NCBI RefSeq assembly: GCF_001899645.1
Contig: NZ_MKVV01000035.1
Location: forward strand, 101,263 to 165,262
Reading direction: 5' to 3'
DNA: 64,000 nucleotides
Origin: Pseudonocardia sp. 73-21
GTDB lineage: Bacteria; Actinomycetota; Actinomycetes; Mycobacteriales; Pseudonocardiaceae
This document shows, in pieces, positions 9,627 through 50,215 of the stretch. The notes beneath the pieces were generated by a model that was not told the DNA's origin, searched no databases, and saw nothing but the letters and a program-made list of their open reading frames with translations. Numbering within the stretch: the first letter of the stretch is position 1; each line of letters begins with the position of its first letter. A program made the translations under genes and the position numbers.

Positions 9627-12010
9627 TTGAGCGAGACCGATCTCGTCAGCACCGGAGCCCCCCGCAAGCGTGGAGGCCTCACCGGAATGGTGTTGGCGGA
9701 GCTCCGCCAGCTGGCCGGGGAACTGAAGATCCCCGACACCACGGGGATGCGCAAGGGCGATCTCATCGCCGCCATCAAGGAGCGTCAGGCCTCCGGCTCG
9801 GCCGGCTCGGCGCAGCTGTCGCTGGCGGAGAGCGGCGCGGCCGAGAAGGCCACCGCGCCCGCGGCGGAGACCTCCGCCGCCCCGGTGACCAGCCCGGACG
9901 CCGCTCCCGCGGCCACGGCGGAGACCTCCGCCGCCCCGGTGGCCAGCCCGGACGCCGCTCCCGCGGCCGAGGTCAGCACCCCTGCCCCGCGACGCCGTCG
10001 CGCCGCGTCGCGCCCCGCGGGCGCCCCGGACCCGCAGCCCGCCGCCGCGCCGGCCGCGGCCGCGGCGCCGGCCGCCGACAACACCCCCGCGCCCGTGGCC
10101 GACGCGCCCGCCGCCGAGGTGGCCGCCACCAACGGCGCCGCCACCAATGGCGCCGCCACCAACGGCGCCGCCACCAACGGTGCGGCGCCCACGGCCGAAG
10201 ACGCCCCCGAGTCGGTCCCCGAGACCGGTGGCCGTCGTTCCCGGCAGCGCCGCAGCCGCGGTGAGCAGAGCGGCGCGGCCCAGAGCGGCGCCGCCCAGAA
10301 CGGTGCCGCCCCGAACGGTGTCACCCAGAACGGGTCCGCGGCTCCGGCCGAGACGGCTAGCGAGACCGTGGCGGCGTCCACCGACACCGCCGGCGACACC
10401 GACCGCCCGCAGCGCGGCGAGGGCCGCCGCAACGGTGGCGAGAACCGCAACGGTGGCGAGAACCGCAACGGTGGCGAGAACCGCAACGGTGGCGAGAACC
10501 GCAACGTGGCGAGAACCGCAACGGTGGCGAGAACCGCAACGACGGTGCCCGCAACGACCGGGGCAACGGCCGCAACGGTGGCGATACCCGCAACCAGGAC
10601 GGCAACCGCAACGGCGGCGGCGACCGCAACGGGGGCGGCGACAACCGCACCCAGGACCGCAACCAGGACGCCAACCGCAACCAGGACGCGAACCGGGGCC
10701 CCCGCGACAACCGCCCGGACGACGACGGTGACGAGGAGGGCGGTGGCCGTCGTGGCCGCCGCTTCCGCGACCGTCGCCGCGGCCGGGACCGGGGCGACCG
10801 TGCGGCCGGTGGCGGTCAGGGCAACGGTGGCCAGGGCAACGTCGACACCGAGGTGCGCGACGGCGACGTCCTGCTCCCCGTCGCCGGCATCATCGACGTG
10901 CTGGACAACTACGCGTTCGTCCGCACGACCGGCTACCTGTCCGGGCCCACCGACGTCTACGTGTCGCTGTCGGTCGTGCGCAAGTACGGCCTGCGTCGCG
11001 GTGACGCCATCACCGGTGCGGTGCGCGAGCCCCGCGAGGGCGAGCAGTCGCGCCAGAAGTTCAACCCGCTGGTGCGCGTCGACTCGATCAACGGCCAGGA
11101 CCCCGAGACGCTGAAGAACCGTCCGGAGTTCACCAAGCTCACGCCGCTCTACCCCAATGAGCGCCTGCGTCTGGAGACCGAGCCGAGCAAGCTCACCACG
11201 CGCGTGATCGACCTGGTCATGCCGATCGGCAAGGGGCAGCGTGCGCTGATCGTGTCGCCGCCCAAGGCCGGCAAGACCATGATCATGCAGTCGATCGCCA
11301 ACGCGATCACCACGAACAACCCCGAATGCCACCTCATGGTCGTCCTCGTGGACGAGCGGCCGGAGGAGGTCACCGACATGCAGCGGTCGGTGAAGGGCGA
11401 GGTCATCGCGTCCACGTTCGACCGCCCGCCGTCGGACCACACCACGGTCGCCGAGCTGGCCATCGAGCGCGCGAAGCGCCTGGTCGAGATGGGCCACGAC
11501 GTCGTCGTGCTGCTCGACTCGATCACGCGGCTGGGCCGGGCCTACAACCTGGCCGCGCCCGCGTCGGGCCGGATCCTCTCCGGTGGTGTCGACTCCACGG
11601 CGCTCTACCCGCCGAAGCGCTTCCTCGGCGCCGCGCGCAACATCGAGGACGGGGGCTCGCTCACCATCTTCGCCACGGCGCTCGTGGAGACCGGGTCCAC
11701 GATGGACACGGTGATCTTCGAGGAGTTCAAGGGCACCGGCAACGCCGAGCTGAAGCTGGACCGCAAGATCGCCGACAAGCGGGTCTTCCCCGCCATCGAC
11801 ATCGACGCGTCCGGCACCCGCAAGGAGGAGCTGCTGCTCTCGCCCGACGAGCTGGCGGTCACCGTCAAGCTCCGCCGGGTGCTCGCGGCCCTCGACGACC
11901 AGCAGGCCCTCGACCTGGTGCTGGGTCAGCTCAAGAAGACCCGCACCAACATCGAGTTCCTCATGCAGGTGGCGAAGAACTCGCCGGGCACCACCGGTAC
12001 CGAGGACTGA
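9627..12010 (+). CDS. rho: Transcription termination factor Rho, frameshifted as read
   Basis: Rho is a hexameric RNA-dependent ATPase that ends transcription. It starts at TTG 9627 after the ribosome site AGGAAGGA. The Rho N-terminal domain (about 1-45) is followed by a long actinobacterial insertion rich in A, P, T, then R, N, G, D. It includes an 18-residue duplication (DNA 9864-9971), an ATNGA repeat (about 10126-10185) and six RNGGEN repeats (10428-10534). The RNA-binding and ATPase domains follow from about 10853, with Walker A PPKAGKT and [13 protein letters not shown]. The fifth RNGGEN repeat lacks one G (GCAACGTGGC at 10501-10510), which moves the frame from the first part to the second. 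Both halves are otherwise clean. A sequencing slip, a real mutation or frameshift expression could explain it. Confidence 0.9.
9864..9971 (+). repeat. 54-bp tandem duplication in rho
   Basis: Two consecutive 54-bp units (9864-9917, 9918-9971) encode [18 protein letters not shown] and a near copy, [18 protein letters not shown]. They lie in the low-complexity insertion of Rho and keep the frame. Confidence 0.85.
10428..10534 (+). repeat. 18-bp tandem repeat in rho with a 1-bp deletion
   Basis: Unit CGCAACGGTGGCGAGAAC (RNGGEN). Four perfect copies run from 10428 to 10499, then a 17-bp copy (10500-10516) lacks one G, then one more perfect copy follows (10517-10534). The short copy is exactly where the rho frame breaks. 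Confidence 0.92.
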
Positions 12011-28113: not shown

Positions 28114-28126
28114 CCCTGCCACGCCC

Positions 28127-28334
28127 CGCGAGTCGTGCCCTGGGCGCCCGCGAGTCGTGCCCTGAGCACCCGCGAGTCGGGGTCTGAGCGTGCACGATTC
28201 GGGCTGTCGGCGCGGCCGGGTCATGCACGGAGGCCCCGACTCGCGGGCACGGAGGCCCCGACTCGCGGGCACGGAGGCCCCGACTCGCGGGCACGGAGGC
28301 CCCGACTCGCGGGCACGGAGGCCCCGACTCGCGG
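28127..28334. repeat. 22-bp periodic repeat array with inverted halves (family B)
   Basis: Three 22-bp units in forward orientation begin CGCGAGTCG (28127, 28149, 28171). After a ~32-bp spacer, five perfect tandem units of GCACGGAGGCCCCGACTCGC plus GG run from 28225 to 28334. The latter are the reverse complement type, ending in CGACTCGCGG. The array fills the gap between the convergent DUF2550 and adenosyltransferase genes and could fold into a large hairpin acting as a two-way terminator. Confidence 0.85.
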
Positions 28335-28342
28335 GGTTGGGG

Positions 28343-45850: not shown

Positions 45851-46624
45851 TCAATCCGTCCAGACCGCCGGCCGCTTCTCCAGGAACGACGCCATGCCCT
45901 CACGTGCGCCCGGGCTCTGCGACAGCGACGCCATGACCTCGACGGCGATGGCGTAGGCGTCGGCCTCGGGGCGGTCGAGCTGGGCGTAGAGGGTCTGCTT
46001 GCCGACGCCCTTGCCGAAGCGGCTGCCGCGGGTGGCGCGGGCGAGCAGATCCTCGACGGCCCGGTCGAGCTCGGCGTCGGGGACGGCGTAGTTGACGAGG
46101 CCCCAGTCGGCGGCCGTGGCCGCGTCGATCGCGTCGCCGGTCAGGGCCAGCTCCATGAGCCGCTTGCGCCCGACGTTGCGGGCCACCGGGACCGCGGGGG
46201 TGTGGCAGAACCAGCCGCCCTTGCCCCCGGGCAGCGCGAAGCCGGCCGACTCGGCGGCCACCGCGAGGTCGCAGGTGGCGACGAGCTGGCAGCCCGCGGC
46301 CGTGGCGATGGCCTGGACGCGCGCGATCACGACCTGGGGCACCTCCTGGATGGTGTTCATGACCTTCGTGCACAGTTTCAGCAGGTCACGCACACCGGCG
46401 AGGTCGCGCGAGGAGACGTCGGCGAAGTCGTGACCGGCTGAGAACGCCGTGCCCTCCGCGGCCAGCACGATGCCCGTGGCGTCGGAACGGCCCGCGGTCT
46501 CGAACGCGTCGAGGAGCTCGCGCAGGTGCCCCTCGGACAGCGCGTTGCGGCGCTCGGGGCGGTTCATCGTGATCCGGACGGTGTCGCCATCGTGCTCGAC
46601 CGTGAGGTTCTCGTAAAGACCCAT
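45851..46624 (-). CDS. Crotonase (enoyl-CoA hydratase/isomerase) family protein
   Basis: 257 residues. The oxyanion-hole segments are GTAFSAGHDFADV and ATAAGCQLVATCDLAVA. The following region FALPGGKGGWFCHTPAVPVARNVGRKRLMELALTG resembles ECHDC3-type proteins rather than classical hydratases, and the usual catalytic glutamate is not evident. It may therefore be an isomerase, hydrolase or non-classical member. ATG 46624. Taking part in crotonyl-CoA formation is possible but not shown. Confidence 0.82.
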   Translation of the reverse strand: MGLYENLTVEHDGDTVRITMNRPERRNALSEGHLRELLDAFETAGRSDATGIVLAAEGTAFSAGHDFADVSSRDLAGVRDLLKLCTKVMNTIQEVPQVVIARVQAIATAAGCQLVATCDLAVAAESAGFALPGGKGGWFCHTPAVPVARNVGRKRLMELALTGDAIDAATAADWGLVNYAVPDAELDRAVEDLLARATRGSRFGKGVGKQTLYAQLDRPEADAYAIAVEVMASLSQSPGAREGMASFLEKRPAVWTD

Positions 46625-46639
46625 GGCACCACGGTAGCC

Positions 46640-46844
46640 GTCGGGGGGGGCGGGGCCGGGTTCTTCTTCGTCGACACCCTGCCCGGCGGGCCCGCGACGC
46701 CCGTACCTGATGGCCTACGCGATGGCGAGCGCGTTGGAGGCCCCGTCACCGCACGTCACGCCGGAGCTGGCCGCCGAGGTCGCCGAGGCCTACCGATCAC
46801 TGATCTCCCACGTCGACGGCGAGTGGCGCCGCCGCGTGCGCTGA
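46640..46844 (+). pseudogene. Possible gene remnant upstream of the P450
   Basis: A run of eight G (46643-46650) is followed by GFFFVDTLPGGP in one frame and, further on, PYLMAYAMASALE and AAEVAEAYRSLISHVDGEWRRRVR in another frame, with a TGA at 46842. The last piece has gene-like codon use and ends 20 bp before the P450. It may be the end of a lost regulator or enzyme. I cannot name a family. Confidence 0.3.
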
Positions 46845-46863
46845 ACCTGAGGGGAGCACCACC

Positions 46864-48148
46864 ATGACCACCAGTGCACCGAACCTGACGGACCCGGCGC
46901 TGATCGCCGACCCGTTCGGCGGCTACGGCCGGCTGCGGGAGGAGGCGCCCGTGCTGCTCGGCGCATCCTTCGACGGCAGCCCGGCCTGGTACGTGACGCG
47001 CCAGGAGGACGTCCGCACCGCGCTGTCGGACCACCGCTTCGTCATGGACCCGGACATCGCGCGAGGGACCGGCAGCGGCAACCCCCGTGCGGCAACCCCC
47101 GTGCGGCAACCCCCGTGCGGCGATCTTCGAGCAGCTCGGCATCCCGGCCGAGTTCACGCCCTACCTCACCGACACCATCCTCGACGTCGACGGCGTCGAC
47201 CACGCGCGGCTGCGCAAGCTGGTGTCCCGCACGTTCACGGTGCGCCGGGTGCACGAGCTGCGCCTGCGCGTCGAGGCCATCGCCGCGGACCTCCTGGACG
47301 GGCTGCCCGAACGCGTCGACCTGCTCGCCGAGTACGCCTACCCGCTGCCCATCACCGTGATCAGCGAGCTGGTGGGGGTGCCGAAGGCGGACCGGCCGGA
47401 GTGGCGGAAGTGGGCCACCGCGCTGGTGACGATGAACCGCGAGACGATTCCCGGCGCGATGCGGGACATGGTCGCGCACTGCCGGGACCTCATCGCCCGG
47501 CGCCGTGCCGAGCCCACGGGCGACCTGATCACCGGGATGGTGGCGGCGCAGGAGGACGGCGCCGAGGTGCTTTCTCCCGCGGTGGCGCACGACAGCGCCG
47601 ATCGCCTGACCGACACCGAGATCGTCACCATGATCCTGACGCTGGTGCTGGCCGGCCACGAGACCACCGCGCACCTGGTCTCCAACGGCACCCTGGCCCT
47701 GCTGCAGCACCCCGACCAGCTCGACCGGCTGCGCCGCGACCCGTCGCTGTGGCCGGGCGCGGTCGACGAGCTGATGCGCTTCTGCGGGCCCGTGCACGTC
47801 ACACGGCTGCGCTACGCCACCGAGGACGTCGAGCTGGGCGGTGTCACGATCCACGCCGGTGACGCGGTGCAGTCGGTGCTGGTGTCGTCGAACTTCGACC
47901 CGCGCGTCTACGAGGATCCCGAGCGCCTCGACGTCACCCGGAAGCCCGCGGGCCGCGGCGACGGGCACGTCGGGTTCGGGCACGGCGCCCACTACTGCCT
48001 GGGTGCCGCCCTGGCCCGGCAGGAGGGTGAGGTGGCCCTGCACGCGCTGGTGGACCGGTTCCCCGCGCTCGCCCTCGACGGCCCGACGGAGTGGGTGCCG
48101 CTGCCCGGCTCGCACCGGCTGACCGCCCTCCCGGTGCGGCTGGCCTGA
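46864..48148 (+). pseudogene. Cytochrome P450 (CYP107-like) interrupted by a 14-bp repeat
   Basis: A soluble bacterial P450 monooxygenase of about 420 residues. The I-helix is AGHETT, the K-helix ExxR is ELMR, and the heme loop is FGHGAHYCLG with the Cys ligand. ATG 46864 has a good ribosome site. After GTGSGNPRAA the unit GGCAACCCCCGTGC is present three times (47077-47118). The two extra copies add 28 bp and shift the frame by one; removing them restores SGNPRAAIFEQLGIPAEF. The rest to TGA 48148 is intact. It is either recently inactivated or switched by repeat number. The substrate is unknown. Confidence 0.88.
47077..47118 (+). repeat. 14-bp tandem repeat, three copies, in the P450
   Basis: GGCAACCCCCGTGC occurs at 47077-47090, 47091-47104 and 47105-47118, all identical. 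One or four copies would keep the reading frame; two or three break it. Confidence 0.95.
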
Positions 48149-48156
48149 CCGCGGTC

Positions 48157-48196
48157 GTGCGCGGAAATCAGTGCCCTGGCACTGATTTCCGCGCAC
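48157..48196. terminator. 40-bp perfect palindrome, copy 2 (family A)
   Basis: Perfect 19-bp arms, GTGCGCGGAAATCAGTGCC (48157-48175) and its reverse complement (48178-48196), with a 2-nt loop. It lies between the convergent P450 and acyl-CoA dehydrogenase genes, 8 bp from each stop, ideal for a bidirectional terminator. Confidence 0.85.
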
Positions 48197-48204
48197 AGGG
48201 GGTG

Positions 48205-49377
48205 TCAGTAGGACTTCGGCAGCCCCAGCGTGTGCTGGGCGATGAAGTTCAGGATCATCTCCCGGCTCACCGGGGCGATCCGGGCCGTGCGGACGGCGCC
48301 GATCAGCGTGCCCACCCCGTACTCGACGGCCATGCCGTTGCCGCCGTGGGCCTGCACCGCGGCGTCCACGGCGTTGATGGCGGCCTCGGCGGCGGCGTAC
48401 TTGGCGATGTTGGCGGCCTCGCCGGCGGCCGCGTGGTCGCCGGCGTCGTAGAACCACGCCGCCCGGGTCGTCGCCATCCGGGCCAGCTCCACCTCCACGT
48501 GCGCCTTCGCCAGCGGGTGGGCGATCGCCTGGTGGCTGCCGATCGGGGCCTTCCAGACCGTGCGGTCCTTCGCGTACTCCGTGCCCTTGCGCAGCGCGTA
48601 GCGGGCCAGGCCGTTGGAGTACGCGGCGACGGTGATCCGCTCCGGGTTGAGCCCGGCGAACAGGGCCGCGAGCCCGGCCTCCTCGCCGCCGACCAGCGCG
48701 TCGTCGGGGAGGTGGGCGTCGTCGAAGAAGACCGTGAACTGCTTCTCCGGGCTCTGGATGGCCATCTCGATGGGCTGGTAGGTCATGCCCGGTGTGTCGG
48801 TCGGGACGATGAACATGGCCGGTCGCAGGGTCCCCCGTGCCGACCCCTTCTGGGCCCCTTCCAGCCGCGCCACCACGAGCGTCGCCTCGGTCTCGTCGAC
48901 GCCGGAGATGTAGTACTTGGTGCCGCTGAGCCGCCACCCGCCGGCCGGGTCGCGACGGGCCGTCGTGGTGATGTTGTGGGAGTTGGACCCCGCGTCGGGC
49001 TCGGTGATGGCGAACGACATCTTCGCGCTGCCGTCGGCGAAGCGGGGGAGCCAGCGCTCCTTCTGCTCGACGGTGCCGCTGGTGGCGATCACGGTGGCGG
49101 CGATGGCGGGCGAGACCACGATCAGCAGCAGCGGGCATCCCGCCGCCGCGATCTCCTCCGCGACGATCGACAGCTCCACCATCCCGGCCCCGCCGCCGCC
49201 GTACTCCGCGGGCACGGCCACGCCGAGGTAGCCGTTGTCCCCGGCCTCCTTCCACAGCTCCGAGGTCTTCGCGCCGGAGCGGGCCTTCTCGAGGAAGTAG
49301 TCGTGGCCGTACTTGGCGGCCATCGCGGCCACGGACGCCCGCAGCAGCTGCTGCTCGTCGGTCTCCCGGAGATCCAT
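48205..49377 (-). CDS. Acyl-CoA dehydrogenase family protein
   Basis: 390 residues from ATG 49377 (MDLRETDEQQ). It has the FAD-enzyme fold: an N-terminal helical domain, a middle beta domain with FAITEPDAGSNSHNITTTA, and a C-terminal domain with QAIAHPLAKAHVEVE and AVQAHGGNGMAVEYGVGTL. At about 390 residues it is much shorter than methylsuccinyl-CoA dehydrogenase, so I do not assign that role. Which acyl-CoA it oxidises is unknown. A GTG at 49401 would add eight residues. Confidence 0.92.
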   Translation of the reverse strand: MDLRETDEQQLLRASVAAMAAKYGHDYFLEKARSGAKTSELWKEAGDNGYLGVAVPAEYGGGGAGMVELSIVAEEIAAAGCPLLLIVVSPAIAATVIATSGTVEQKERWLPRFADGSAKMSFAITEPDAGSNSHNITTTARRDPAGGWRLSGTKYYISGVDETEATLVVARLEGAQKGSARGTLRPAMFIVPTDTPGMTYQPIEMAIQSPEKQFTVFFDDAHLPDDALVGGEEAGLAALFAGLNPERITVAAYSNGLARYALRKGTEYAKDRTVWKAPIGSHQAIAHPLAKAHVEVELARMATTRAAWFYDAGDHAAAGEAANIAKYAAAEAAINAVDAAVQAHGGNGMAVEYGVGTLIGAVRTARIAPVSREMILNFIAQHTLGLPKSY

Positions 49378-49401
49378 CTGTCCCACAGTAGAAGCACTCA
49401 A

Positions 49402-49681
49402 CGGGGTGCGGGACCGGCGGGCGGAAGTGCTCGTCCGCGTGCGCAGCGCGCAGTGGACGGTCGCTCCTACGGTTGCGGTGTCGGCGTCCGTTCGCGGTCG
49501 CCCAGACGCGGCCGGCCGGCGACGGCAGGTTCGGCCCGGCGCAGGTCCACCACCCCACAGCCGGCTTCAGCCGCCCCGCGCTCCGCGGGGTGGTCCCGCG
49601 CTACACCCCGTGCCTGGTGTGCCCGGCCCGCCGGCGAAGGGAAAGACCAGCTCGTACCTGACGAGCGGCATCTCGGAGCGG
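49402..49681. other. Intergenic region without a supported gene
   Basis: 280 bp upstream of the acyl-CoA dehydrogenase and downstream of the NUDIX gene. Short arginine- and proline-rich frames exist, but none looks coding. It should hold the dehydrogenase promoter on the minus strand. Confidence 0.5.
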
Positions 49682-50215
49682 TCAGGGCCGCCGGTCGTGG
49701 AGCAGCAGGAGCAGGTAGGCCGCCACGGTCTGGGCGTCGACGATCTCGGAGCGGCGCACCATCTCCTCGAACTCGGCGGTGCTGAACCAGGCGGCCCGCA
49801 TGTCCTGCTCGGTGTGCTCGCGCCGCACCGGCCCCTCGACCAGCTCCGTCGCGAGGAAGACGTGCTCGCGCTGGCTGGACATGCCCGGTGCGATGTCCAT
49901 GTCCCCCAGCAGCTCCATGCGTCCGGCGACCAGGCCCGTCTCCTCCTCCAGCTCGCGGGCCGCGAGCACGGCGGGCTCGAGCTCGGCCCGGTCGGGGGCG
50001 GTGCCCATGGGGAACTCCCAGCGCCGCGCCCCGACCGGGTACCGGAACTGCTCGACGAGGTGCAGCCGGTCGCCGTCCCGGGGGATGACCACGGCGGCGG
50101 TCGGCTTGTCGACCACCCCGTAGATCCCGTCCGTGCCGTCGGAGCGCCGGACGGCGTCCTCCCGCACCGTCATCCAGGCGTTGGCGTAGACCTCACGGCT
50201 GCTGATCGTCTCCAC
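49682..50215 (-). CDS. NUDIX hydrolase (ADP-ribose pyrophosphatase-like)
   Basis: 177 residues from GTG 50215. The Nudix box ends in AARELEEETGL, preceded by a glycine and acidic residues; the segment RLHLVEQFRYPVGARRWEFPMG is typical of ADP-sugar pyrophosphatases. The spacing between the first G and the RE pair is slightly longer than the classical box. It would hydrolyse ADP-ribose or a related nucleotide sugar. It overlaps the small ORF upstream by 23 bp, suggesting an amidohydrolase-small ORF-NUDIX operon. Confidence 0.88.
   Translation of the reverse strand: METISSREVYANAWMTVREDAVRRSDGTDGIYGVVDKPTAAVVIPRDGDRLHLVEQFRYPVGARRWEFPMGTAPDRAELEPAVLAARELEEETGLVAGRMELLGDMDIAPGMSSQREHVFLATELVEGPVRREHTEQDMRAAWFSTAEFEEMVRRSEIVDAQTVAAYLLLLLHDRRP

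Follow-up and report, generated by a model that had tools for sequence, protein, structure and literature searches.

Organization of the P450 locus

The window, i.e. the whole stretch of 64,000 nucleotides that was analysed, belongs to a contig of 177,681 bases in a Pseudonocardia genome of 7.09 Mb and 111 contigs, and contains a CYP107-like P450 gene with a perfect tandem array inside it (Table 1). The gene is preceded by the remnant of a TetR-family regulator gene and lies among neighbours that we take to be an enoyl-CoA hydratase, an acyl-CoA dehydrogenase and a Nudix gene.

Table 1. Features of the P450 locus, with positions as numbered in the window
Feature	Positions	Strand	Remarks
Enoyl-CoA hydratase-like gene	45851..46624	-	Conserved left neighbour (conservation tested)
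TetR-family regulator remnant	46645..46844	+	Matches relatives' TetR before P450; left edge approximate
N-terminal P450 frame	46864..47862	+	ATG start; reads P450 up to the array and nonsense from there to the stop at 47862
Tandem array	47075..47121	+	3.36 perfect copies of GCGGCAACCCCCGT, 14-bp unit
C-terminal P450 frame	47087..48148	+	353 aa from in-array GTG; Pfam p450; stop at 48146-48148
Acyl-CoA dehydrogenase-like gene	48205..49401	-	Right neighbour in some relatives
Nudix-like gene	49682..50215	-	Conserved right neighbour

The ATG of the N-terminal frame follows a sequence, AGGGGAG, that by eye resembles a ribosome binding site, and the first 77 residues of this frame are those of P0001, a protein record described below. 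The C-terminal frame contains AGHETT, ELMR and FGHGAHYCLG, which we take to be P450 motifs. The GC3 coding signal lies in + phase 0 before the array and in + phase 1 after it. As a first-pass annotation of this sequence had stated, three copies break the P450, whose two parts fall in different + frames. The same annotation held that one copy would restore the expected protein, and a one-copy version would indeed read ...GSGNPRAAIFEQ..., exactly as in the relative P0003. Compared with one copy, the additional 14 or 28 bp of two or three copies break the frame and the 42 bp added by four copies keep it, as had also been anticipated. The array is thus an intragenic repeat whose unit is not a multiple of three and whose changes in copy number toggle the reading frame.

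An internal restart at the in-array GTG (position 47087) was rejected, as by eye nothing resembling a ribosome binding site precedes this codon and a protein begun there would be without its N-terminal part. Ribosomal frameshifting would require a +1 shift at the array and was set aside, with nothing in its support. Likewise, we found no second P450 that could cover the loss: the next match in the same genome, among the matches listed, has 47% identity, which also indicates that there is no recent duplicate of the gene.

The hydratase and Nudix neighbours are both present in 11 of 20 relative loci, and neither was found in the other nine. A TetR-type reading frame was displayed between the hydratase and the P450 in 10 of the 11 syntenic loci; in locus L013 the right TetR frame was absent from the three frames inspected, and the remnant of the window still matches this locus (E = 2.6e-4). 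Overall, the remnant matches nine of the 11 syntenic loci at E ≤ 2.6e-4, the exceptions being L010 and L012. The regulator of L010, the sole one tested, matches Pfam TetR_N; a Pfam search with the remnant returned no domain. The remnant reads GFFFVDTLPGGP in one frame and then YLMAYAMASALE...EWRRRVR-stop in another, with one frame change and about the first three quarters missing. Within about 20 bases of the hydratase leader (CACGGTAGCC), the window sequence passes into roughly the last quarter of the TetR gene; in L010 about 64 bases separate the two divergent start codons. The window has lost most of the divergent promoter region along with the regulator, and the expression signals of the locus are not intact.

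A protein search with the tail of the remnant retrieved four full-length TetR proteins among nine candidates, the best of them with 91% identity and none near 100%. One of the four, P0122, and the one-copy sister P0004 have longest contigs of equal length (108,495 bases). Since the strains of P0001 and P0002 are present in the searched database on several contigs, an intact TetR should have surfaced from them; the deletion is probably shared with both strains, an argument from absence.

Separately, the locus of the metagenome-assembled genome RYN_179 (L009) was compared with window positions 45851–50215. Identity was 94% for the hydratase and the dehydrogenase, 88% for the Nudix gene and 77% for the C-terminal part of the P450; in this pair, the P450 has changed faster than the genes beside it.

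The tandem array and other repeats

The array consists of (GCGGCAACCCCCGT)x3 + GCGGC, with copies that are 100% identical, which bears out the three identical 14-bp copies described in the first-pass annotation. The 5-bp sequence GCGGC forms both the last bases of the array and the first bases of the unit. Of 20 sequences of 64 kb simulated with a third-order Markov model, none contained a perfect array with a period of 7–60 and at least three copies, and the array is above chance expectation. The 19-bp string GCGGCAACCCCCGTGCGGC occurs in one of 62 Pseudonocardia genomes (own genome included), namely the own genome, with three overlapping matches that all lie at the P450 locus.

A census of perfect arrays (period 4–60, repeat overlap of at least 14 bp) covered the window and 40 stretches of its genome, amounting to 856,419 bases or about 12%. 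It yielded 42 arrays, 18 of them with at least three copies; a period not divisible by three was found in five arrays with at least three copies and in 14 with at least two. The comparison genome G017 (400,000 bases) gave 20 arrays, five with at least three copies and none with a period not divisible by three. Among the 14 arrays of the own genome, only that of the P450 showed a GC3 coding signal of at least 0.2 on both flanks. Of the other four with at least three copies, three lie between likely reading frames (22 bp at 28225, 16 bp at L140:7758, CGGA at L125:4180), and the 22-bp array at L144:1369 has one flank with stops in all six frames. A second frame-breaking array with coding signal on both sides was not found in the 12% sample, nor was a genome-wide habit of coding arrays seen there.

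Several other repeats were noted. Two arrays with a 22-bp period and a GACTCGC core, at window positions 28125–28179 and 28225–28335, are oriented in opposite directions and are situated between two reading frames that converge. The pattern GACTCGC-N15-GACTCGC occurs in 43 of the 62 Pseudonocardia genomes, in a few of them at chance level, with 233 matches in the own genome and up to 344 in G035 (0–3 per genome for the reversed control); among 149 other genomes drawn from the order, 12 have one or two matches. The 22-bp element is genus-restricted, patchy, abundant and intergenic; a literature search on it found nothing among the papers listed. The array at L140:7758–7812 has 3.44 perfect 16-bp copies between two likely divergent reading frames, and could possibly represent promoter length variation. 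Finally, an 18-bp array at window positions 10427–10541 (6.4 copies, 97% matches, period divisible by three) lies within a low-complexity stretch with open frames.

Copy-number states in relatives

A single frame runs through the array region in all 49 relative loci examined, which comprise 20 of the 80 from one relative search and 29 from the same-genus set of 62 Pseudonocardia genomes (own included), with some genomes in both; G023 has a TGA inside the aligned stretch, yet its frame is intact at the array site. This supports an expansion specific to the lineage of the window. The comparison set contains one genome per species, and copy numbers in sister isolates were read from protein clusters. 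A protein search scored 7998 candidates (those sharing most words), of which 1732 matched at E ≤ 1e-60 and the best 120 of these were used. Proteins P0003–P0006 have 87–89% identity, the motif [GA]NPR[AST]AIFEQ and single-copy length, and at the array site P0004–P0006 differ from the one-copy reading by one or a few residues. No one-copy protein above 89% identity was found among the 120 proteins listed, in which clusters are shown by their representatives; functional one-copy alleles of the species may exist within the cluster of P0001. A search with residues 50–112 of P0001 returned six proteins, P0001–P0006.

Protein P0001 (432 aa) is identical to the window over residues 1–77 and over the 353 C-terminal residues, and between them its array region reads GNPRAATPVRQPPCGNPRAAIFEQ, i.e. 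exactly four units in frame. The in-frame state with four copies, put forward in the first-pass annotation from one sequence, was thus met in an independent record. The cluster of P0001 contains six member sequences (90% identity) on four contigs, the longest of which, with 273,232 bases, exceeds the contig of the window in length. Protein P0002 (353 aa, 97% identity) represents a second lineage, with nine residue differences from P0001, and its cluster has four member sequences on six contigs; it starts at the same in-array GTG and therefore corresponds to the three-copy frame. With three copies in the window and four in P0001, very close strains or assemblies differ in copy number, and the protein records include both open and broken frames.

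P0001 may stem from a sister isolate, or from the strain of the window itself, assembled a second time. Its identity with the window over both gene parts would agree with one strain having been assembled twice, in which case there would be one true copy number and either the window (three) or P0001 (four) would be miscounted. We consider such a sequencing or assembly difference rather improbable: four copies span 61 bp and three copies 47 bp, so that by arithmetic a de Bruijn assembly would leave the count in doubt only for k up to about 47, and the three-copy frame is also present in the distinct lineage of P0002, with its several sequences and contigs. The three-copy frame in both the window and P0002, as well as the loss of TetR, would also be expected of a plain pseudogene fixed at three copies throughout the species, with no further change; the exact four copies of P0001 speak against this, and we regard it as very unlikely.

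P450 class and structure models

The protein matches Pfam p450 and its AlphaFold2 model has a P450 fold in Foldseek comparisons. We call it CYP107-like because its nearest structures bear CYP107 names. By sequence, the solved structures that it most resembles are CYP107Z12 (9v2t, ranked first), CYP-Sb21 (6m4s) and SaAcmM (5nws); the two best Foldseek matches were 5nws (50% identity) and 6m4s (53%), with 9v2t not among the 50 matches listed.

The AlphaFold2 model of the four-copy P0001 (25 sequences) has a mean pLDDT of 81.8. The insert (residues 70–83) lies between helices 63–66 and 88–95, that is, in the B-C region, and is modelled as a disordered extra loop, with residues 71–77 and 79–81 below pLDDT 50, as are residues 238–247 and 374–382. 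The model of the one-copy P0003 (24 sequences; pLDDT 82.7) shows nearly the same elements and one short helix more. Judging from the models, the P450 fold could be retained with four copies. In the alignments with 9v2t, 6m4s and 5nws, the complete insert that P0001 has between the B and C helices is absent from all three structures.

The B-C loop is, we assume, substrate recognition site 1. It is conceivable, although we judge it highly improbable, that the locus is a switch with three states: the standard enzyme would be made from one copy, no enzyme from two or three, and from four copies a version whose B-C loop, near the substrate site, is 14 residues longer; slippage would then change the specificity of the P450 as well as its presence.

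Changes at conserved sites

Columns were considered conserved when the agreement was at least 95% in the 118 other listed proteins, as was the case for 123 of 353 columns. Four of the nine differences between P0001 and P0002 fall at such columns, about the share expected of neutral change (123/353); in 17 disjoint control pairs the figure is 11 of 281 (one-sided Fisher test, p = 0.0005). In 46 control pairs with 4–30 differences each, 42 of 820 differences were at conserved columns and none of the 46 pairs reached 4/9. With other cut-offs, the comparison was 5/9 vs. 38/281 at 85% (p = 0.005), 5/9 vs. 31/281 at 90% (p = 0.002), 2/9 vs. 9/281 at 98% (p = 0.04) and 1/9 vs. 3/281 at 100% (p = 0.12). 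The excess fits relaxed constraint, with near-neutral change after the loss of frame, on only nine changes and more weakly at stricter cut-offs; small as the sample is, it does not have the appearance of an open state kept functional by selection.

Considered one at a time, P0001 and P0002 have two deviations each at conserved columns, which is within the range of the other 118 proteins (0–8, median 1), although the nearest of these, P0003–P0006, have none. The nine differences all lie within residues 135–261 and the last 171 residues are identical (p = 0.0026 if uniform), a clustering that hints at recombination between strains, at a chimeric assembly or at a C-terminal part under constraint. 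As a separate observation, residues 238–249 of P0001 (window about 47561–47596) form a second lineage-specific P450 insert, common to P0001 and P0002; at least 90% of the other 118 proteins lack it, and by eye it is not a tandem repeat.

These data bear on the idea, advanced in the first-pass annotation, that the array has the design of a phase-variable gene. A true contingency locus would be one in which 14-bp slippage turns a useful P450 on (one or four copies) and off (two or three), and selection keeps the array. Perfect copies of a frame-toggling unit not divisible by three are what such a locus would have, as are a three-copy frame in two lineages with four copies in a near-identical record, a P450 resident at the same place in 11 of the 20 relative loci tested, and a four-copy model that nearly retains the elements of the one-copy model. 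It is difficult to reconcile, however, with the deletion of the regulator and of most of the promoter region in the window, with the changes at conserved sites, with one-copy proteins no closer than 89% identity among the representatives listed, with the lack of a comparable array in the 12% sample, and with an array string confined to this genome in the set of 62. We thus consider a contingency locus unlikely. The switch logic and the variation in copy number are present, and signs of a maintained gene are absent; the label of contingency locus therefore goes beyond the evidence.

Proposed origin of the array

We favour, as the probable explanation, a variable repeat made by slippage in a decaying gene, in which the four-copy state is a frameshift scar. 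The single-copy gene would have contained GCGGC-AACCCCCGT-GCGGC, a 5-bp direct repeat deduced from the edges of the unit, and replication slippage between these two GCGGC seeds would have produced a duplication of 14 bp. With growth from one to three copies the P450 would have lost its frame, most likely before the lineages of the window and of P0002 separated. By then or soon after, the gene would have been in disuse and decaying, with deletion of the upstream TetR gene and most of the divergent promoter region, and would have accepted changes at conserved positions. The array would have slipped on, and a fourth copy, seen in one near-identical record, would have reopened the frame with 14 more residues in the B-C loop. 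As the three-copy frame is found in two lineages and four copies in one, the path 1 → 3 → 4 is the shortest; going twice from four to three copies is a possible alternative.

In P0001 the frame is restored and both parts are otherwise intact, with 14 extra residues between them, as in a scar. Against decay, a fully open frame with four copies exists and there is no stop in either half of the gene.

The locus illustrates, in an environmental actinomycete genus, that frame toggling alone is insufficient to name a contingency locus, the loss of the regulator and the conserved-site changes both pointing to decay. The state of a neighbouring regulator and the changes at conserved sites between close lineages are tests that could be used on other candidate switches.

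Comparison with known systems

A literature search, with subscription journals outside its coverage, found no phase-variable P450 or such actinomycete arrays among the papers listed. The closest parallels concern frameshift scars and other variable repeats. In Mycobacterium tuberculosis, of the same phylum, the ScarTrek study describes scars in which a frame-breaking indel is followed by a frame-restoring one, with changed residues between them; they were identified in 5977 isolates and confirmed by read inspection, with indels mostly under 10 nucleotides apart (PMC8339072). Using the terms wound, fix and scar of Gupta and Alland (PMC8339072), the step from one to three copies in the P450 gene would be the wound, that from three to four the fix, and the 14 residues the scar. 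Unlike those scars, the P450 case involves a 14-bp unit and is known from protein records, and the gene concerned appears to be in decay.

Promoter tandem repeats of M. tuberculosis Erdman are reported, from deep long reads, to be phase-variable, with 10^-2 to 10^-3 changes per chromosome (PMC12817950); copy numbers can therefore change quickly in an actinomycete. Both cases are actinobacterial tandem repeats whose copy number differs between very close strains, although the P450 array lies in a coding frame. In icaC of Staphylococcus aureus, a tetranucleotide repeat in the coding sequence expands and contracts, by which the gene is inactivated and restored (PMC4117637). The P450 array likewise lies in a coding sequence and has a period that is not a multiple of three; the icaC unit is of 4 bp, with reversibility and phenotype shown, whereas that of the P450 is of 14 bp and is known from sequence.
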